Of a DNA stretch of 64,000 bases, positions 32,228 to 63,975 are shown in pieces (within the stretch, counting starts at the first letter, position 1; each line of letters starts with the position of its first letter). The DNA is taken from positions 186,001-250,000 of the forward strand of contig NZ_AQQX01000002.1 in NCBI RefSeq assembly GCF_000768315.1. The letters run 5' to 3'. The translations under genes and the position numbers were made by a program. The notes below the pieces were generated by a model. It saw only the letters and a list, made by a program, of their open reading frames with translations, had not been told where the DNA came from and did not search any database. Source of the stretch: Pseudooceanicola atlanticus (GTDB lineage Bacteria > Pseudomonadota > Alphaproteobacteria > Rhodobacterales > Rhodobacteraceae).

Positions 32228-32956
32228 TCAGATGGACATCTTCTTGAATATGGCTTCCGGGATGCTGCGGATGATTCCCATAATCAGCCGCCAGACGCCG
32301 CGCACATAGATCACGTTCTGACCCTTGTCGACGGCTTTCAAAATCGCCGCGCCAACTTCCGCCGGTTGCGCGGTCAGCCGCTCTGGCAGGTCCATATGTT
32401 CGGTCATCTGCGTCGCCACGAAACCCGGTTTCACGGTCACCACATGCACCCCGGTGCCGGTCAGCCGATTGCGCATCCCCGACAGGAACGCGGTGAAGCC
32501 TGCCTTGGCCGATCCGTAGATGTAATTCGTCGCGCGTCCCCGGTCCCCCGCCACCGAAGAGATCCCGACGATGGTCCCCGTGCCCCGCGCCTCCATGCGC
32601 GTGGCATAGGCCCCGAGGATCGCCGCCGGCCCCTCGTAATTCGACCGCATCACGGCGACAGAGGCAGCGACGTCGTCCTGATCCGCGTCCTGCTCGCCCA
32701 TCCGGCCCACGGCACAGATGACGATGTCGGGCAGCGGGTCCGCGGCAGCAAAGTCCTCGTGCCCGTCGACATCCAGCGCGTCGAAGTCCCGCAGGCCGAC
32801 GGTGACACCGTAGCGCAGTTCGATATCCGCCTTCTCGGGGCCCAGCGTTTCGGATCGGCGCGCCGCCAGGACGATATCATGTCCGGCCCCCGCGAAGGCA
32901 TGGGCGCAGGCCAGCGCCATATCCGACCGCCCACCAAGGATCATGACCTGGCTCAT
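32228..32956 (-). CDS. DprE2-like short-chain dehydrogenase
   Basis: A 242-residue SDR with an atypical nucleotide loop MILGGRSDMALACAHAFA (residues 5-22) and the catalytic set Ser (ISSVAG) and Tyr-x-x-x-Lys (YGSAK) near residues 136-154. In mycobacteria DprE2 reduces the 2-keto intermediate made by DprE1 to polyprenyl-phosphoryl arabinose. The same role is proposed here from sequence type and the overlap (ATGA) with the DprE1-like gene. A hydrophobic C-terminal segment (VWRLIMGIIRSIP) suggests membrane association, as for DprE2. Confidence 0.85.
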   Translation of the reverse strand: MSQVMILGGRSDMALACAHAFAGAGHDIVLAARRSETLGPEKADIELRYGVTVGLRDFDALDVDGHEDFAAADPLPDIVICAVGRMGEQDADQDDVAASVAVMRSNYEGPAAILGAYATRMEARGTGTIVGISSVAGDRGRATNYIYGSAKAGFTAFLSGMRNRLTGTGVHVVTVKPGFVATQMTEHMDLPERLTAQPAEVGAAILKAVDKGQNVIYVRGVWRLIMGIIRSIPEAIFKKMSI

Positions 32957-34278
32957 AGCTTCAACCTTTCCGATTGCGCCGAGGCAAAGACCCCGGCATA
33001 TCCCGCCGCCTGCCGCGCCCTGGCAAATTCGCCCGCCCGTGGATCGGCCTTGTGCAGCACCTCGGCCGGGACGCGGCTGTCCTTGGCCAGGTAATACCGT
33101 CCGCCATGATCCAGCGTGATCGCATCCAGCCGGTCCAGCAACCGCAGCGCCGCCGGGCTGACCGGGAAATCCAGGGCCAGGGTGTATCCCTCCATCGGGA
33201 AGGAGAACTGCCCCTTTTCCGGCCCCAGCCGTTTCAGGACAGCCAGGAAGGACCCCTGCTCTGCCGCCGCGATCACATCCAGCAGGGTCCGCAAGCCATC
33301 GCGCGAAGCCTCCAATGGCAGCACCACCTGGTACTGTGCAAAGCCGCGCCGCCCGTAGATGCGGTTCCACTCATGCACCGCGTCCAGGGGATAGAAATAG
33401 CTGTCCCAATCCACGACCGACCGCCCGGCCTTGCCCGCATTCACCCTGTAATAGAGCGCGTTGAATGCGCGCAGGGTGTACTTGTTCAAGGCAAAGCCCG
33501 GCGCATCCAGCGGCACCCGCCGCGCCTTGCGCACGGGCACGTCGAAAGGCACGGGGCGCCGGTTGGCGGGCAGATCCGACGGCTCCGCATGATCGCCAAG
33601 GATCACCAGCGACCGGCCCAGATCGGCGCCCTTGGCCAGACAGTCGAACCAGGCAACGGCATATTGCGCGGCATCGCGTTCGAACACCTCCATGGCGGCA
33701 TCGAGGTCAGGCGTCGGGATCATCTCCTGTCGGATCCAGCCGGTCTGCACCGGGGCCAGTTGCAGGGCACAGCGCAGGATTACCCCGGTCAGGCCCATCC
33801 CGCCAATGGTCGCCGCGAACAGATCGGAGTTCTCACTGCGGGAGGCGCGGCGCAGCTCGCCGTCCGCGCCCATCACCTCGACCCACAGAACGTGGCGACC
33901 AATGGTGCCGTCGCGCCTGTGGTTCTTGCCGTGCACATCGGCTGCGATCATCCCGCCCAGCGTCACCAGCTTGGTGCCCGGCGTCACAGGCGGGAACCAA
34001 CCGCGCGGCAGGAAGGCGGCGATCACGTCACCCAGGATCACCCCGGCTTCGGCCGTCAGCACGCCGGTATCGGCGTCGAAGTCCAGCATCCGGTTCATCC
34101 GCCGCATGTCGAGCGTCCCCCCCACCTGCGCCGCCGCATCGCCATAGGACCGGCCATTGCCGCGCGCGATCACCGGTCCGTCCGCCATCGCCGCGCGCAA
34201 TCCGTCCTCGTCCCGCACCGGGATGCGGCGCCCCTCGATCCGCGGGTAGCGGCCCCAGCCGGACAGATCGGCGCTCAT
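32953..34278 (-). CDS. DprE1-like FAD-dependent oxidase
   Basis: A 441-residue FAD-linked oxidoreductase of the DprE1/alditol-oxidase type. Seen: the FAD loop ARGNGRSYGDAA (residues 38-49), the histidine motif AADVHGKNH (112-120), KGQFSFPMEGYTLALDFPV (355-373), the lysine in YYLAKDSR (Lys399) and the ending VFASAQSERLKL, all in DprE1 order. It would oxidise the 2-OH of a polyprenyl-phosphoryl ribose. The position of the benzothiazinone-reactive cysteine of the mycobacterial enzyme is Ala368 here. It overlaps both neighbours by four bases (ATGA each side). Confidence 0.9.
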   Translation of the reverse strand: MSADLSGWGRYPRIEGRRIPVRDEDGLRAAMADGPVIARGNGRSYGDAAAQVGGTLDMRRMNRMLDFDADTGVLTAEAGVILGDVIAAFLPRGWFPPVTPGTKLVTLGGMIAADVHGKNHRRDGTIGRHVLWVEVMGADGELRRASRSENSDLFAATIGGMGLTGVILRCALQLAPVQTGWIRQEMIPTPDLDAAMEVFERDAAQYAVAWFDCLAKGADLGRSLVILGDHAEPSDLPANRRPVPFDVPVRKARRVPLDAPGFALNKYTLRAFNALYYRVNAGKAGRSVVDWDSYFYPLDAVHEWNRIYGRRGFAQYQVVLPLEASRDGLRTLLDVIAAAEQGSFLAVLKRLGPEKGQFSFPMEGYTLALDFPVSPAALRLLDRLDAITLDHGGRYYLAKDSRVPAEVLHKADPRAGEFARARQAAGYAGVFASAQSERLKL

Positions 34279-34679
34279 GCGGCCACCCCCCGGTCAAAGA
34301 CGAACCGCCGGTCCAGCCGGTACTTGACCACGTAGCCGATGCTCAGCCCGATCACCGCCCCGACCTCGCGCGCGGTTTCGGTGCCCCAGATCAGCCAGGC
34401 CCCGGTTTCCGCCCCCCAGAAGATCGCCGTCGTGGCCACCCCCATGAGGGTATAAAGCGAGAACTTCTTCCCATGCGCGCCGGCCCCGCGACTGCGGTCG
34501 TCGAAGATCCAGCGCTTGTCGAGGACGTACTTCACCACCAGCCCCGCCGCCGTCCCGGCCAGCAAGGCCAGAACAAAGCCCAGCCCAAGCCCCAGAACGC
34601 CACGTTGAACGGCAAGGTTGACCAGCACCGCGATCACCGCGAAACCCGCATAGCGCAGGATCAGGCCCGGCAGGCTCAC
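34275..34679 (-). CDS. GtrA family membrane protein
   Basis: A 134-residue protein with four transmembrane helices and the GtrA signature VVKYVLDKRWIFDDRSR near residues 48-64, repeated late as VVKYRLDRRFVFDRG. GtrA proteins are linked to movement or presentation of polyprenyl-phosphate sugars. In Mycobacterium tuberculosis a GtrA protein (Rv3789) precedes DprE1 and DprE2, the same order as here. The GTG start overlaps the UbiA-gene stop (GTGA), and its stop overlaps the next ATG (ATGA). Confidence 0.92.
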   Translation of the reverse strand: MSLPGLILRYAGFAVIAVLVNLAVQRGVLGLGLGFVLALLAGTAAGLVVKYVLDKRWIFDDRSRGAGAHGKKFSLYTLMGVATTAIFWGAETGAWLIWGTETAREVGAVIGLSIGYVVKYRLDRRFVFDRGVAA

Positions 34680-36130
34680 AATTGCGCTCCCGCGACGACC
34701 AGCAGGAAGACCAGACCAAAGGCCGCATAGCTGACTTTGTCCTTGGCCGCGAAGACCACCGGGTCGTCATGCATCTTGCCCCGATGGGTGATCAACACGA
34801 TCCTGCTGATCCAGAACAGTAGGATCGCACAGATCCCGAACAGCACCTCGGGCCGCGCGTATAGGTCCGTCACCTCGGGCGAATTCACGTAAAGCGCCAT
34901 GACCAGGACCGAGACATAACCCGCCCCGACCGCCATCATCGCGACCAGCGGCAGGTCCTCTGCGCGATAGCCACGCCGCGCGTTCAACGCCCGGTCCGAC
35001 GCGACCGCATCCACCAGTTCTGCCTGTCGTTTCACCGCGGCAAGCGAGAAGAAGAAGAAGATCGAGAAGGCCAGCAACCAGACCGAAAGCGGCGTGCCCG
35101 TCGCCACGGCCCCCGCCACGATCCGCAATGTGTAAAGGCCCGCCAGCGTGCAGATATCCAGCACCGGCACCTGTTTCAGCCACATCGAATAGGCCGTCGT
35201 CGTCAGGTAATAGGCGAGCAGAACCGCGACGAAGCCCGGCCCCAGCAGCGCGCCCAACCCGAACCCCGCGACCAGCAGGAAGGGCGTCAGCCACAGCCCG
35301 TGCCGCAACGCCAACTGGCCGGAGGCAAAGGGCCGCGCACGCTTGCGCGGATGTGCCCGGTCCGATGGCAGGTCCAGCAGGTCGTTGATCACGTAGACCG
35401 AAGAGGCCAGCAGCCCGAAGGCGATGAAGGCCAGCACCGCCTGCGACACCCCCGGCGTATCCATCCGGTGCGCCGCCAGCAGCGGCAGGAAGATCAAGAT
35501 GTTCTTGGCCCATTGATGCGGCCTGAGCGCGCGCATCAAGGCTCGGGGGAAGGAGGGCAGGTCGGTGTCCAGATGTTCCACCCCGCCCTCTGCCCGGACC
35601 CGCTGCCGCAGGGAGTGCGGCGCACCGACCGTCACCGCGCCCGAAGATGCGGCCCAGACCGGCAGATCAGCCTCGGAATCGCCGATATAGTGAAACCCGC
35701 CCGCGCCGTAGCGGTCGATCAGGAAGGCCGCCTTGACCCCACCTTTCAGGTTCACGCCGCCGTCCGATCCATGCACCTCGTCGAAGAGGTTAAGATGCGC
35801 CGCGACGCGTTCCGCCAGGTGGCGGTCGGCGGCGGTGACAAGAGCGACCTTTCCGCCCTGCGCCCGCCAATCCCGCAGCCGGGCCAGGATATCCTCGCGA
35901 TAGGGCAGATGGCGCACATCGACATCGCCGCGCTGCGCCAGCACGGATTTCAGCGCGGCCCGCCCGCGCAACAGGCCGGCAAAGGCGGCAATAGGCGCAG
36001 TCCAGCGGCTGGCCAGCGCCGCCCAGAAGGACTCATCCAGCAGGTCGGTCCGGATCAGCGTCCCGTCCAGGTCACAGACCAGAACCGGGCGATCCACGCC
36101 CGAAATGTCGTGCAAATGCGCCTGCGCCAT
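34676..36130 (-). CDS. HAD phosphatase-UbiA prenyltransferase fusion
   Basis: A 484-residue two-domain protein. Residues 15-190 are a HAD-family hydrolase with all four motifs: Asp20-x-Asp22 (CDLDGTL), Thr99 (LVTAADR), a lysine (129 or 133) and Asp151/Asp155 (YIGDSEADLP). Residues 200-484 are a UbiA-type integral membrane prenyltransferase with RPHQWAKNILIF and the Mg-binding NDLLDLPSDRAHPRKRARP (Asn249, Asp250, Asp253, Asp257). The latter closely resembles the 5-phospho-ribosyl transferase Rv3806c. The likely reaction is PRPP plus polyprenyl phosphate, with the HAD domain removing the 5-phosphate. It is the first gene of a four-gene overlapping operon. Confidence 0.88.
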   Translation of the reverse strand: MAQAHLHDISGVDRPVLVCDLDGTLIRTDLLDESFWAALASRWTAPIAAFAGLLRGRAALKSVLAQRGDVDVRHLPYREDILARLRDWRAQGGKVALVTAADRHLAERVAAHLNLFDEVHGSDGGVNLKGGVKAAFLIDRYGAGGFHYIGDSEADLPVWAASSGAVTVGAPHSLRQRVRAEGGVEHLDTDLPSFPRALMRALRPHQWAKNILIFLPLLAAHRMDTPGVSQAVLAFIAFGLLASSVYVINDLLDLPSDRAHPRKRARPFASGQLALRHGLWLTPFLLVAGFGLGALLGPGFVAVLLAYYLTTTAYSMWLKQVPVLDICTLAGLYTLRIVAGAVATGTPLSVWLLAFSIFFFFSLAAVKRQAELVDAVASDRALNARRGYRAEDLPLVAMMAVGAGYVSVLVMALYVNSPEVTDLYARPEVLFGICAILLFWISRIVLITHRGKMHDDPVVFAAKDKVSYAAFGLVFLLVVAGAQL

Positions 36131-58711: not shown

Positions 58712-58734
58712 TCCTCCGCCCCCAAAAGAACGCC

Positions 58735-58768
58735 AAACGCCCCCGCAGCACCCTGCAGGGGCGTTTTT
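58735..58768 (+). terminator. scoAB rho-independent terminator
   Basis: AAACGCCCC-C-GCAG pairs with CTGC-A-GGGGCGTTT across a 4-nt loop, with a single C-A mismatch, and is followed by TTCTTGTC on the plus strand. Confidence 0.88.
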
Positions 58769-58891
58769 CTTGTCACGACAATGCCAGCCGGGCCTCCGGC
58801 CGCCCCGCCCCTCTTTCATCTGGCCAGTAAATATCCTCGCCGAAGGCATGGGCGCGGCGGGGCTCGATGCCCCGACGGGGCCACCCTGCCC

Positions 58892-59707
58892 TCAGGGCTG
58901 GCGGAACGCGCAGCCATCCGACACCAGCACGGGTGGCGTCAGGCACAGGCCCCGGGCGACGTTGAACGCCGCAAGAACCTTGGGCACGTAATCCCGGGTC
59001 TCAGCGTAAGGCGGCACGCCGCCATGCTTGCGCACCGCGTTCTCGCCGGCATTGTAGCCCGCCAGCGCCAGCACCGGGTCATTGTCGAAATCCTGCAGCA
59101 ACCGGTCGAGGTAGCGGATGCCGCCCCGGATGTTCTGCGCCGCGTCCAGCCGGTCACTTACGCCAAACCGCTCCGCCGCCGCGGGCATCAGCTGCATCAG
59201 CCCCTGCGCGCCCGCGCCGCTCTGCGCATCCGCACGGCCTGCCGATTCCACCGCGATCACCGCCAGGGCCAGCGCGGGCGATACCCGCGTGTCGATCGAG
59301 GACATGAGGATATCGGCGCCATAGGCCTCCGTGATCTTCAACAGCATGTCGAGCCGCGGCTCCGGCACCCGCGCGCCCGCAGGGCCATTGGCCAGGTGAA
59401 CCAGCGCAGGGCCCAGCCGATCGGGGCTCGACGCGGTGAGGTCGGGTGAGATCTCGGTCCAGAACCAGTCCAGCGCCCCGCGGGGCGCGGCGGCGGCCGG
59501 GGTCACCTCGGCCTCGTTCTTGCGCGGCTTCGGCACCGGCAGGGGTTCGGTGATCTGCACATTGATCCGCTTGCCCGCCGACGCCTTGGGCGGCTTGACC
59601 CGCTTGAAGGTGAAATCCTGAAAGGCCGGCGGTTCGGCCGAAACGGGCAGCCCATGCAGGCACAACACGCAGCCGGCAACGGCTAAGGGTCTGGCAAGTC
59701 GACGCAT
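58892..59707 (-). CDS. Lytic transglycosylase, SLT domain
   Basis: A 271-residue exported muramidase-type enzyme. A signal peptide (residues 1-24, ending PVSA) and a proline/lysine-rich linker precede the C-terminal transglycosylase domain. The catalytic glutamate lies in VIAVESAGRADAQSGAGAQG near residue 155, followed by LMQLMPAAAERFGV and LALAGYNAGENAVRKHGG. It cleaves peptidoglycan and may open a path for the adjacent pilus machinery; that link is suggested only by position. It converges with scoB. Confidence 0.92.
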   Translation of the reverse strand: MRRLARPLAVAGCVLCLHGLPVSAEPPAFQDFTFKRVKPPKASAGKRINVQITEPLPVPKPRKNEAEVTPAAAAPRGALDWFWTEISPDLTASSPDRLGPALVHLANGPAGARVPEPRLDMLLKITEAYGADILMSSIDTRVSPALALAVIAVESAGRADAQSGAGAQGLMQLMPAAAERFGVSDRLDAAQNIRGGIRYLDRLLQDFDNDPVLALAGYNAGENAVRKHGGVPPYAETRDYVPKVLAAFNVARGLCLTPPVLVSDGCAFRQP

Positions 59708-60076: not shown

Positions 60077-60256
60077 ATGATCAAGTTCATCAAAAACTTC
60101 CGCAAAGACGAAGCTGGCGCCGTGACCGTTGACTGGGTTGTGCTGACCGCAGCCGTGGTTGGCCTGGGCGTTGCCGCCTACGGTTCCATCGAAACCGGCG
60201 CAAGCGGCCTGACGTCCAACGTCTCGACCTACATGGGCTCCCAGAACCCGAACTAA
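60077..60256 (+). CDS. flp: Flp-type IVb pilin, first copy
   Basis: A 59-residue Flp prepilin. The short leader MIKFIKNFRKDEAG ends in the glycine cut by the prepilin peptidase. The mature chain begins AVTVDWVVLTAAVVGLGVAA, a hydrophobic helix. Position +5 is Asp and +6 Trp, not the common Glu-Tyr. GGAGGGA precedes ATG 60077. A hairpin 31 nt past the stop probably makes this a separately abundant transcript. Confidence 0.92.
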   Translation: MIKFIKNFRKDEAGAVTVDWVVLTAAVVGLGVAAYGSIETGASGLTSNVSTYMGSQNPN

Positions 60257-60406: not shown

Positions 60407-60580
60407 ATGAAGAAGGTCGTGAAGACATTTCGCCGGGACGAAGCCGGCGCCGTTACGGTCGATTGGGTCGTTCTGACCGCACTGGGAATCGCGCTTTGCG
60501 TGGCAACGTTCAATGCCATGAGCGACGGCGCGACCGGTCTGGCCGGAAACACGGAATCCTTCATGGGATCCCAGCGGTAA
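60407..60580 (+). CDS. flp: Flp-type IVb pilin, second copy
   Basis: A 57-residue Flp prepilin, MKKVVKTFRRDEAG before the cleavage site, with mature start AVTVDWVVLTALGIALCVAT. It shares the 15-residue block DEAGAVTVDWVVLTA with the first copy and also ends FMGSQ before its last residue, so the two arose by duplication. It has a cysteine in the helix, unlike the first copy. The start codon has AGCAGG upstream. Confidence 0.9.
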   Translation: MKKVVKTFRRDEAGAVTVDWVVLTALGIALCVATFNAMSDGATGLAGNTESFMGSQR

Positions 60581-60849: not shown

Positions 60850-61704
60850 ATGAGAGCTGTATTCGGATTGGTACTTGTCGTCGGTCTCGGCCTTGCCGGG
60901 TTTGCCGTCGTCATGGTCAAGAACCTCCTGAATGAACAGGCCATGCTGGCCCAGTCCCAGGCGGGACAGGTGCAGAAGGTCCCGACAAAGATGGTCTACG
61001 TGGCCAACCGCCAGGTTCAATATGGCGAGGAACTGAAGAAGGAAGACGTCCGCCGCGTCGAATGGCCCGCGGCCGCGATGCCCGAAGGCGTGTTCTTCGA
61101 AGAGGACCAGCTCTTCCCCGCCGGTGACACCCGCCCCCGCTACGTCCTGCGCATGATGGAGCCGAACGAGGCCGTCATGGAGGTCAAGATCACCAAGCCC
61201 GGCGAAGATGCCGGCCTCACCTCGCGCCTCGAAAAGGGCATGCGTGCCTTCGCGATCAAGGTCGACGTGTCCTCGGGCGTGTCGGGCTTCCTGCGCCCCG
61301 GTGACAAGGTCGACATCTACTGGACGGGCCGTGTCGAAGGTGCCAACCGCTCCGGCGAAGTGACCAAGCTGATCGAAACCGGCATCAAGCTTGTCGCGGT
61401 CGACCAGATGGCCAATGGCGATGTCAGCGAGGCGATGATCGCCCGCACCGTCACCGTCGCAATCAACCCGCAGCAGGTCGCCTCCCTCGCCCAGGCACAG
61501 TCGACGGGCAGCCTGTCGCTCTCGCTCGTGGGCAATTTCGACGATACCGTCGCCGAGGCCATCGAGGTCGACCAGCGCTCCCTGCTGGGACTGGCGGAAA
61601 TGCCCGAAATTCAACAGCAACGCGAGGAACCCAGAGAGCGCGTCTGCACCATCCGGACCCGCCGCGGCGCAGAGGTCGTGGAGACCCCGGTCGCCTGCAA
61701 CTGA
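60850..61704 (+). CDS. cpaB: Tad pilus assembly protein CpaB
   Basis: A 284-residue periplasmic pilus assembly protein anchored by an N-terminal helix (residues 4-24). It has a SAF domain (MVYVANRQVQYGEELKKEDVRRVEWP, near residues 48-73) and the RcpC/CpaB core (SGVSGFLRPGDKVDIYWTGR near residue 140). It works with the secretin CpaC encoded downstream. AAAGGA precedes ATG 60850. A 12-bp hairpin follows the stop. Confidence 0.92.
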   Translation: MRAVFGLVLVVGLGLAGFAVVMVKNLLNEQAMLAQSQAGQVQKVPTKMVYVANRQVQYGEELKKEDVRRVEWPAAAMPEGVFFEEDQLFPAGDTRPRYVLRMMEPNEAVMEVKITKPGEDAGLTSRLEKGMRAFAIKVDVSSGVSGFLRPGDKVDIYWTGRVEGANRSGEVTKLIETGIKLVAVDQMANGDVSEAMIARTVTVAINPQQVASLAQAQSTGSLSLSLVGNFDDTVAEAIEVDQRSLLGLAEMPEIQQQREEPRERVCTIRTRRGAEVVETPVACN

Positions 61705-61760: not shown

Positions 61761-61876
61761 CATCAGGAATGGCGCGAAAGTCATTGATTCTTGCAAAAAA
61801 TCGGCTTTTGCCCCATCATGAAAGGAACGACGGGCGAAAAGACCCGACCAGAGGCGTGATCGGAGAGGCAGGTCAC

Positions 61877-63301
61877 ATGAAAAATTGCACGTTCCTACGG
61901 GCCGCCCTTTTGGGGCTGACCCTGGCCATTGGCAGTACGGCTGTGCCCGCTCAGGCAGAGCGGCTGACAGTGGTGAACCGAAATTCAGAACAATCGCTCA
62001 AGGTGTCGATCAACCGCGCCGTGGTGGTCGAAAGCGACGTGGCCTTTGCCGAACTCAGCATCGCCAACCCGCAGATCGCCGACATCTCGTCGCTCTCGGA
62101 CCGGTCGATCTACGTTCTGGGCAAGGCGCCGGGGATCACCACGCTGACCCTGCTCGACGCAGAGGGGCGGCTGATCTCCAATGTCGACGTGGTCGTGTCC
62201 GCCGATATCTCGGAATTCAAGGAACGGCTCCGCCAGATCCTGCCCAACGAGAAGATCGAGGTGCGCACCGCCAATGACGGGATCGTCCTGTCGGGCGTCG
62301 TGTCCTCCTCCCAGCGGTTGCAACGCGCCCTGGACCTTGCCGAACGCTACGCGCCGGAACGGGTGTCCAACCTGATGTCCGTGGGCGGCGTCCAGCAGGT
62401 GATGCTGAAGGTCCGATTCGCCGAAATGCAGCGGTCCGTGTCCAAGAACCTCGCCGCCTCGCTGGCGGCCGACGGCTCCGCGCTTGGCGGTGGCCTGGGG
62501 ATCTCCACCGGCACCGGGCGCTATTCCAACTCCGGCAGCCAGACCTCCGGCATCGGCGGCACGCTTCCGGGCTCCAACACCAATTCCGGCGCGACCCTGC
62601 TGGGCTTCAACGCCGGTGCGGTGCAGGTCGGCATCCTGCTGGAAGCGCTGGAAACCAAGGGCGTTGTCCGCACCCTGGCCGAACCCAACCTCACCGCCCT
62701 GTCGGGGCAGGAGGCCAAGTTCCTCGCCGGTGGCGAATATCCCGTGCCCGTCGCCCAGGATGGCGGCACCGTCACGGTCGAATTCAAACCCTTCGGCGTT
62801 GAGCTCAACTTCATCCCGCGGGTCGTCGACCAGGACCTCATCAACCTCGAACTGCAGGCCGCCGTGTCGGCGATCGACCCCAATAACGGGTTCGAACTCA
62901 ACGCCTTCCGGATCGACGCCTTCACCCGCCGCGAAACCTCCACCACGGTGGAAATGCGCGACGGTGACAGCTTTGCCATCGCGGGCCTGCTTCAGGACGA
63001 TTTCCGCGACACCAAAAGCCAGGTGCCATGGCTCGGGGACATCCCGATCCTGGGCGCGCTGTTCCGCTCCGCCGAATACCAGCGTGAGCAATCCGAACTG
63101 GTCATCATCGTGACCGCGCACCTTGTGACCCCCACGCGGGGCGAGGCGCTGGCCCTGCCGACCGACCGGGTCAAACCCCCGTCGGAAAAGGATCTTTTCC
63201 TGTTCGGCAAGGTCGAAAAAGATCAACGCAAGCTCAAGGGGGCCGCGGGCGAAGTCGCCAAGCAGGACTTCAAGGGCTCCTATGGCTACGTGATGGAGTG
63301 A
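61877..63301 (+). CDS. cpaC: Tad pilus secretin CpaC
   Basis: A 474-residue outer-membrane secretin of the type II/III secretion superfamily (CpaC/RcpA). A signal peptide ending PAQA is followed by a pilus N-terminal domain (VVVESDVAFAELSIANPQIAD), a BON-like segment (LPNEKIEVRTANDGIVLSGVV), and the secretin core (VVRTLAEPNLTALSGQEAKF, then VPWLGDIPILGALFRS near residue 390). It forms the exit pore for Flp pili. GGCAGG lies upstream of ATG 61877. Confidence 0.95.
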   Translation: MKNCTFLRAALLGLTLAIGSTAVPAQAERLTVVNRNSEQSLKVSINRAVVVESDVAFAELSIANPQIADISSLSDRSIYVLGKAPGITTLTLLDAEGRLISNVDVVVSADISEFKERLRQILPNEKIEVRTANDGIVLSGVVSSSQRLQRALDLAERYAPERVSNLMSVGGVQQVMLKVRFAEMQRSVSKNLAASLAADGSALGGGLGISTGTGRYSNSGSQTSGIGGTLPGSNTNSGATLLGFNAGAVQVGILLEALETKGVVRTLAEPNLTALSGQEAKFLAGGEYPVPVAQDGGTVTVEFKPFGVELNFIPRVVDQDLINLELQAAVSAIDPNNGFELNAFRIDAFTRRETSTTVEMRDGDSFAIAGLLQDDFRDTKSQVPWLGDIPILGALFRSAEYQREQSELVIIVTAHLVTPTRGEALALPTDRVKPPSEKDLFLFGKVEKDQRKLKGAAGEVAKQDFKGSYGYVME

Positions 63302-63306
63302 TCGGG

Positions 63307-63975
63307 ATGGCTCGCACAACTCACCTGATCCTCATCGGCGCGCTGGCCACCACGGCCCTGTCCGCCTGCACCACGGACAGCCGCCGGTCCTTCCTGAACG
63401 AGGCCGGTACCTTCCAGGGCGATGGCACCTTCGGCAACGCCACGATGAACAACACGCTCGTCCAGAACGGCGAAAAGCGCTACGTTCTGGATCTCGCCAA
63501 CCGGTTCGCCAACGAAGTCGACAGCACCGTTAACTTCGCCTTCAACTCGTCGCAGCTCGATGCGGCGGCGCGGGCAACGCTGAACCAGCAGGCCAATTTC
63601 ATCCGCCAGTTCCCCGAGGTCCGGTTCCGTGTCTACGGCCATACCGACCTGGTCGGGTCCGCCGCCTACAACCAGCGCCTCGGCCTGGCCCGGGCGCGTG
63701 CGGTGGTCGGATACCTCGTCTCCCACGGGATCAGCGCCACCCGGCTCGAAGCGGTCGTCTCCAAGGGCGAAACACAGCCTCTGGTTGTTACACAAGGTCG
63801 CGAGCGGAAAAATCGCCGCACAGTGACTGAAGTGACCGGCTTCGTCGAGGATAACCCGATGATTCTAGACGGAAAATACGCCCAGGTCGTGTATCGCGGC
63901 TATGTCGAATCCGCCATCGCCCCGACCGGTCTGACCGGGGTCGATTTCACCGGTGGGTCCTCGGGTGGTGAATAA
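63307..63975 (+). CDS. OmpA-family lipoprotein of the tad locus
   Basis: A 222-residue lipoprotein (lipobox ALSAC, Cys21) whose middle part is an OmpA-like peptidoglycan-binding domain: VNFAFNSSQLDAAARATLNQ near residue 75 and RVYGHTDLVGSAAYNQRLGL with ARARAVVGYL near residue 110. It probably anchors the pilus machine to the wall at the site usually occupied by a CpaD-like protein. ATG 63307 with GGAG upstream was chosen over GTG 63298, which would overlap the cpaC stop. Confidence 0.9.
   Translation: MARTTHLILIGALATTALSACTTDSRRSFLNEAGTFQGDGTFGNATMNNTLVQNGEKRYVLDLANRFANEVDSTVNFAFNSSQLDAAARATLNQQANFIRQFPEVRFRVYGHTDLVGSAAYNQRLGLARARAVVGYLVSHGISATRLEAVVSKGETQPLVVTQGRERKNRRTVTEVTGFVEDNPMILDGKYAQVVYRGYVESAIAPTGLTGVDFTGGSSGGE

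Follow-up and report, generated by a model that had tools for sequence, protein, structure and literature searches.

A four-gene operon lies on the minus strand, at 32228..36130, of a 64,000-nucleotide stretch of the Pseudooceanicola atlanticus genome (contig NZ_AQQX01000002.1, positions 186,001 to 250,000; hereafter the window). In order of transcription, it encodes a UbiA-family protein with an N-terminal HAD domain, a GtrA-family protein, a DprE1-like FAD oxidase and a DprE2-like short-chain dehydrogenase/reductase (SDR) (Table 1). Each gene overlaps the next by 4 nt (34679-34676, 34278-34275 and 32956-32953). An earlier inspection of the letters alone (the sequence-only reading) had described these genes, overlaps and families; coordinates and families were confirmed, with Pfam matches to UbiA (PF01040, 2.4e-23), GtrA (PF04138, 3.4e-12), FAD_binding_4 (1.6e-23) and adh_short (8.6e-23). 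The GtrA protein scored 166 bits on NF037976, for which the cut-off is 50.

The Rv3806c-like NDxxDxxxD motif noticed earlier in the transferase is present as NDLLDLPSD (residues 249-257). The HAD domain fused to it (PF12710, residues 18-158, 1.1e-12) had been overlooked. This domain has a phosphoserine-phosphatase-like fold, and the UbiA domain has the fold of decaprenylphosphoryl-5-phosphoribose (DPPR) synthase, its closest solved structure being DPPR synthase 8j8j (4.9e-29). In Citrobacter, the HAD-UbiA fusion ORF15 produces lipid-linked ribose, and seven of its residues have been mutated (PMC11127046). All seven (D18, N247, D248, D251, D255, R366 and E369) are kept in the window protein, as D20, N249, D250, D253, D257, R368 and E371. 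Across 49 aligned HAD-UbiA sequences, picked because they carry the HAD domain, D20, D22, G23 and T24 are invariant. We propose this domain as the missing phosphatase of a pathway to a lipid-linked arabinose donor: it would provide the step performed in mycobacteria by Rv3807c, which belongs to a different phosphatase family. With a HAD domain on the UbiA protein and all seven ORF15 residues present, the predicted route from phosphoribosyl pyrophosphate (PRPP) to lipid-linked arabinose looks complete. The three-component pentofuranose system of Citrobacter youngae O1/O2 (ORF12-15) shares the fusion with the window. However, it has a MATE flippase beside the fusion where the window has GtrA, and it uses a GT136 transferase and a single SDR epimerase, whereas the window has an oxidase and a reductase.

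Among solved structures, the oxidase is closest to DprE1 (4aut, 3.3e-86) and the SDR to DprE2 (21gq_C, 3.1e-32), in agreement with the claimed homology to mycobacterial types; the GtrA protein gave no usable match when compared by sequence with the PDB. In its own genome, the window SDR scored 197.6 bits on the DprE2 model, versus 70.2 for the runner-up among 43 matches. The phylogeny, which the sequence-only reading had named as a possible refutation, was built with a quick method, with the Shimodaira-Hasegawa-like approximate likelihood ratio test (SH-aLRT) as sole support, on 49 of 125 DprE1 rows and 52 of 114 DprE2 rows hand-picked for spread. The window oxidase and NoeH fell into a 24-row group, and the window reductase and NoeO into a 20-row group, both with an SH-aLRT of 95. 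Actinobacterial proteins lie on the DprE side, and the FAD and SDR paralogues of the same genome (4 of 9 and 18 of 19 were usable) are separated by branches of 100 and 99, respectively. Deep placement is weak, since the program flagged long branches.

The closest known relative of the operon is noeCNHOP (Rhizobium sp. IRBG74 and Azorhizobium), an operon for Nod-factor arabinosylation whose first four genes are of the same types, in identical order, and overlapping. On IRBG74 plasmid NC_022536.1, genes for UbiA, GtrA, FAD oxidase, SDR and a 401-aa protein overlap by 4, 4, 1 and 4 nt; the first three values are 4, 4 and 4 in the window. Identity is 55% for UbiA (286 residues, UbiA part only), 57% for GtrA, 57% for the oxidase and 58% for the SDR. 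NoeC lacks the HAD domain, in contrast to the window protein; no nod genes were seen at the window operon, and a NoeP homologue was not found in the window (best tblastn E 0.57). Since the operon shares its gene order with the start of noeCNHOP, at 55-58% identity over these four genes, the donor pathway itself is of a known kind (noeCNHO of rhizobia); its likely destination is new. Loss of noeP lowers Nod-factor arabinose from 51.7% to 0%, and loss of noeN lowers it to 27.8%; the authors proposed noeN as a possible phosphatase (PMC5080398). In the IRBG74 record, noeN is annotated GtrA (L228:8576-8998). The operon order in that record identifies noeN as the GtrA gene, which suggests that its product is a GtrA-type flippase rather than a phosphatase. 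With noeN a GtrA gene and NoeC lacking a HAD domain, neither would account for the phosphatase step in IRBG74.

The mycobacterial decaprenyl-phosphoryl-arabinose pathway (Rv3806c, Rv3807c, DprE1, DprE2, Rv3789) has a transferase, an oxidase and a reductase homologous to those of the window; no counterpart of its AftA- or Emb-type gene was found here. The GtrA-DprE1-DprE2 order named in the sequence-only reading was seen in an annotated Rhodococcus ruber record, followed by an arabinofuranosyltransferase, and with a second GtrA gene on the opposite strand between the first one and DprE1. Given gene order, families, catalytic residues and folds, all shown by the analysis, the four genes very probably make lipid-carried arabinose, as predicted from homologues with published activity or mutant data. 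Together, their products would convert PRPP into polyprenyl-phosphate D-arabinofuranose and flip the product to the periplasmic side of the inner membrane. The 5'-phosphate would be taken off by the HAD domain, the oxidase-reductase pair would turn ribose into arabinose by inversion at C2, and GtrA would bring the lipid-sugar to the periplasm. The ribose-to-arabinose epimerisation and flipping of the sequence-only reading fit the families found, with a phosphatase added and the pathway no longer new. A literature search on this module with arabinofuranose in Rhodobacteraceae/Rhodobacterales found no publication.

We surveyed the distribution of the module. In the genus Pseudooceanicola, the UbiA gene occurs in 15 of 22 genomes, the source genome included. 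Fifteen other loci in the genus (14 genomes) were inspected: DprE1 is present in 13, and all 13 carry the full module with HAD. Of these 13, 9 have cmk immediately upstream and 6 have rpsA on the other side; at the window operon a cytidylate kinase gene (NCBIfam) lies upstream on the same strand, and downstream come a convergent TPR-sulfotransferase gene, then genes taken by eye for rpsA and ihfB. In a sample of 120 genomes of the family, UbiA (E 1e-80 or better) was found in 47, DprE1 (1e-40) in 38 and both in 36, a co-occurrence exceeding chance (Fisher p 1.7e-18); DprE1 and UbiA are at most 5 kb apart in 29 of the 38, and 11 of the 47 lack DprE1. In named genomes, at least 585 stretches matched and 579 were confirmed; among the best 80 of these, 52 had the four genes together on a single strand in a stretch of no more than 4.5 kb, with HAD in 50. 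The oxidase matched 64 of 72,556 plasmid records at 1e-30. Genes following the SDR vary: GT87 proteins, NoeP, members of a roughly 520-aa family (Tateyamaria, Paracoccus and Rhizobium), an AftB-like protein in Shimia (L170, called by motif) and others, with no transferase-type gene at some loci. These differences point to a putative donor module with exchangeable transferases.

As stated in the sequence-only reading, no arabinosyltransferase was found in the window; a candidate lies 6.8 kb past its right end. The window contains a Tad (Flp) pilus locus at 58.9-64 kb, 23 kb from the operon, and tadZ, tadA, tadB and tadC homologues continue past the right end (L282). Two ORFs are presumably Flp pilins, an identity that we take from their sequence pattern and from location (Table 1). 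Among 49 family loci, DprE1 was found in 28, comprising 7 GtrA operons like that of the window and 21 loci of a second kind (type B). In type B, the neighbour of DprE1-DprE2 is a gene for a flippase-type protein (the one tested matched PF03706 and TIGR00374), UbiA is on the opposite strand, and GtrA is absent within 4.5 kb. The type-B block lies between homologues of the window CoA-transferase and SLT genes in 20 of the 21 loci, the 21st showing no SLT match. RcpC or the secretin was present in the fetched stretch of 18 of the 21 loci; Tad gene families were Pfam-checked in one type-B locus and in the window. In many Rhodobacteraceae (L050-L082), an arabinose block with a PF03706-type flippase is built into the tad locus; the window lacks it at the corresponding place, 58712-58891.

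Table 1. Features of the operon and of the Tad locus (window coordinates)
Feature	Position	Strand	Remarks
HAD-UbiA fusion	34676..36130	-	484 aa; predicted polyprenyl-phosphate phosphoribosyltransferase with its own 5'-phosphatase
HAD phosphatase domain of HAD-UbiA protein	35561..36085	-	residues about 16-190; predicted nucleophile D20
UbiA / DPPR-synthase domain of HAD-UbiA protein	34679..35545	-	residues 196-484; NDLLDLPSD 249-257, R368, E371
GtrA family protein	34275..34679	-	134 aa; predicted flippase; NoeN homologue, 57% identity
DprE1-like FAD oxidase	32953..34278	-	441 aa; NoeH homologue, 57% identity
DprE2-like SDR	32228..32956	-	242 aa; NoeO homologue, 58% identity
Junction CoA-transferase / SLT gene	58712..58891		180 nt; site of the flippase-DprE1-DprE2/UbiA block in type-B relatives
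SLT transglycosylase gene, Tad locus boundary	58892..59707	-	PF01464
Flp-type pilin ORF, predicted acceptor	60077..60256	+	by eye; no Pfam match; identity from sequence pattern and position
Second Flp-type pilin ORF	60407..60580	+	by eye; identity from sequence pattern
RcpC/CpaB, Flp pilus assembly	60850..61704	+	PF16976 3.6e-24
Tad secretin	61769..63301	+	PF00263 1.5e-43, PF13629
OmpA-family gene of Tad locus	63298..63975	+	PF00691

The candidate beyond the window is a 532-aa, 11-helix protein encoded on the minus strand after tadC (G000:C12:256846-258444). Searched with a profile of the 520-aa family, the ORFs of 0.92 Mb of the source genome gave this protein as sole match (E 1.7e-9). The family of the 532-aa protein (20 members) aligned in HHalign with the DprE2-adjacent family of Rhizobium and Paracoccus at 99.7% over 481 columns, versus less than 2% for NoeP, RRG family, PMT_2, MATE, cytochrome oxidase, MFS and TRAP controls and 49% over 79 columns for GT87 (names assigned by eye except GT87 and PMT_2). 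Homologues occur in 19 of 20 tad-side flanks, the exception (L291) showing no tad genes; three of the 20 flanks come from genomes in which DprE1 is distant from UbiA, sits on a different contig or was not detected. All 17 tad-bearing stretches of type-B relatives carry a homologue, and all 17 have DprE1 in the genome, whereas the 4 control tad loci, from genomes lacking the pathway, had none. The control loci were located via weak UbiA-family matches taken as ctaB (8 stretches, of which 4 had tad genes followed by at least 4.2 kb past tadC); in positives the near end of the homologue is at most 3 kb from tadC.

This linkage and co-occurrence, which are observed, suggest that the donor is probably used at the Tad pilus, where the 532-aa protein would transfer arabinose to Flp pilin, by analogy with TfpW. 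TfpW of Pseudomonas aeruginosa is the precedent for D-arabinofuranose on pilin, and this type of glycosylation helps to evade pilus-specific phages (PMC11841053). The predicted likeness lies in a lipid-linked D-arabinofuranose donor and a pilus-encoded multi-helix transferase; TfpW acts on group IV type IV pilin, here the pilus would be of Tad/Flp type. We put the probability of the full model, a four-gene donor pathway and a 532-aa protein arabinosylating Flp pilin, at roughly 0.6, every step in this organism being predicted, and the pilin-transfer step from gene linkage and profile homology. On this view, the unspecified envelope glycan of the sequence-only reading would give way to the Tad pilus of the window. 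For the family as a whole, we lean slightly towards Rhodobacteraceae Tad pili being arabinosylated by a membrane glycosyltransferase family that bears no Pfam or NCBIfam name and is encoded at the tad end, the lipid-linked D-arabinofuranose donor coming from embedded PF03706-flippase genes or from a separate noeCNHO-like GtrA operon. Many bacteria from the sea or associated with plants attach to surfaces by means of Tad pili. Should Flp pilins bear arabinose, its bearing on attachment and on sensitivity to phages could be tested in an abundant marine family. The findings also give a widespread donor module a candidate destination in one large group. A literature search on Flp/Tad pilin glycosylation found no paper linking arabinofuranose.

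Several observations weigh against the full model. Neither Pfam nor NCBIfam gives a match for the 532-aa protein, so its glycosyltransferase role is a prediction. Its gene is 35 kb from the operon, and the architecture of the operon differs from that of the 17 relatives. The control tad loci number just four, the tad locus of genomes with a GtrA-type operon was looked at in the source genome alone, and the two candidate-finding profiles were run on about a fifth of that genome. On the donor side, the oxidase and SDR miss the NCBIfam equivalog cut-offs (417 of 500 bits on NF053785 for DprE1, 197 of 250 on NF053786 for DprE2), which is why they are named DprE1-like and DprE2-like; none of the 120 family genomes reaches the NF053785 cut-off. 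An alanine of the oxidase aligns with the cysteine of the DprE1 VCVDFPI segment, which we take to be the benzothiazinone target. Elsewhere, polysaccharide genes surround or adjoin the module (Salipiger sp. CCB-MM3 plasmid unnamed3, Ruegeria sp. SCSIO 43209, R. conchae and, by eye, congener G128 at L110), so that the donor can serve other acceptors. Finally, a solitary 377-aa membrane protein with an RRG motif (C43:191321-192454) is the sole clear match, among 776 ORFs of the source genome, to an operon-linked family (E 8.9e-11; next match 3.9 bits).

The last two points raise the possibility, which we regard as doubtful, that the lipid-linked D-arabinofuranose serves a surface polysaccharide (exopolysaccharide or O-antigen side chain) through another membrane transferase such as the 377-aa protein. 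One member of its family (L119) gave one match in the 72,556 plasmids, 1.4 kb from the module; however, two other queries, the 377-aa protein included, gave no plasmid match. The protein is 19-25% identical to its family, its AF2 model is of too low quality to draw on (pLDDT 49), and no polysaccharide genes were seen near the operon or the 377-aa gene. That the lipid-linked sugar is a pentofuranose other than arabinose (ribose or some other epimer), with oxidase and reductase acting on another lipid-sugar, appears improbable: the scores under the equivalog cut-offs, the 11 of 47 strong-UbiA genomes without DprE1, and an extended SDR (by eye) beside the HAD-UbiA gene at some loci, as in the Citrobacter xylofuranose system (PMC11127046), would fit, but the trees group both proteins with NoeH/NoeO of the Nod-factor arabinosylation operon. 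Least of all do we expect a relic, or an operon unrelated to the envelope; the gene is patchy in the genus, yet the four frames are open with catalytic residues kept, all four genes are kept in 13 of 13 congener loci with DprE1, and two of the four products are membrane proteins.

Other transferases were considered besides the 532-aa protein. No GT87 match was found in the whole source genome; an AftB-like protein and profile A2 gave no match there either, in searches that had no known positive and so weigh nothing, and the AftB-like protein had no usable match by sequence in the PDB. As queries, the L034 protein gave a best match of E 0.06 in the source genome, and the L110 protein was found in 1 of 22 genus genomes, that from which it came. 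The sole PF13231 (PMT_2-type) protein found in the source genome (C23:345584; L115:8193-10960) was set aside as first-choice transferase because a GT2-type gene (by eye) is divergent to it; the pair possibly forms a separate lipid-linked hexose system.

The convergent sulfotransferase (plus strand, ORF to 31923, PF13469) exists as described earlier, but its suggested part in modifying the same product was not borne out. Around the UbiA gene at the 15 other loci of the genus, tblastn gave no match to it at 1e-10, and in BLAST at 1e-3 it did not match the sulfotransferases encoded in two exopolysaccharide clusters that contain all or part of the module. Directly after the SDR gene is an ORF of about 50 aa (32150-31999, minus strand). 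Promoter and terminator scans gave no signal above shuffled sequence.

Related arrangements were seen elsewhere. At L041, L073, L074, L076, L077 and L113, an extended SDR (by eye) lies beside or near HAD-UbiA and DprE1 is absent from the locus; these are candidate lipid-linked xylofuranose systems like that of Citrobacter O2. A Leisingera plasmid (L277) has HAD-UbiA and GtrA, but a glycosyltransferase takes the place of oxidase and reductase; these genes lie in an exopolysaccharide cluster that also includes a sulfotransferase, and are a candidate ribose version of the module. A record labelled Nocardioides marinus (L149) carries a Roseobacter-like operon with neighbours common to Leisingera (L131), and is likely mislabelled or a contaminant.

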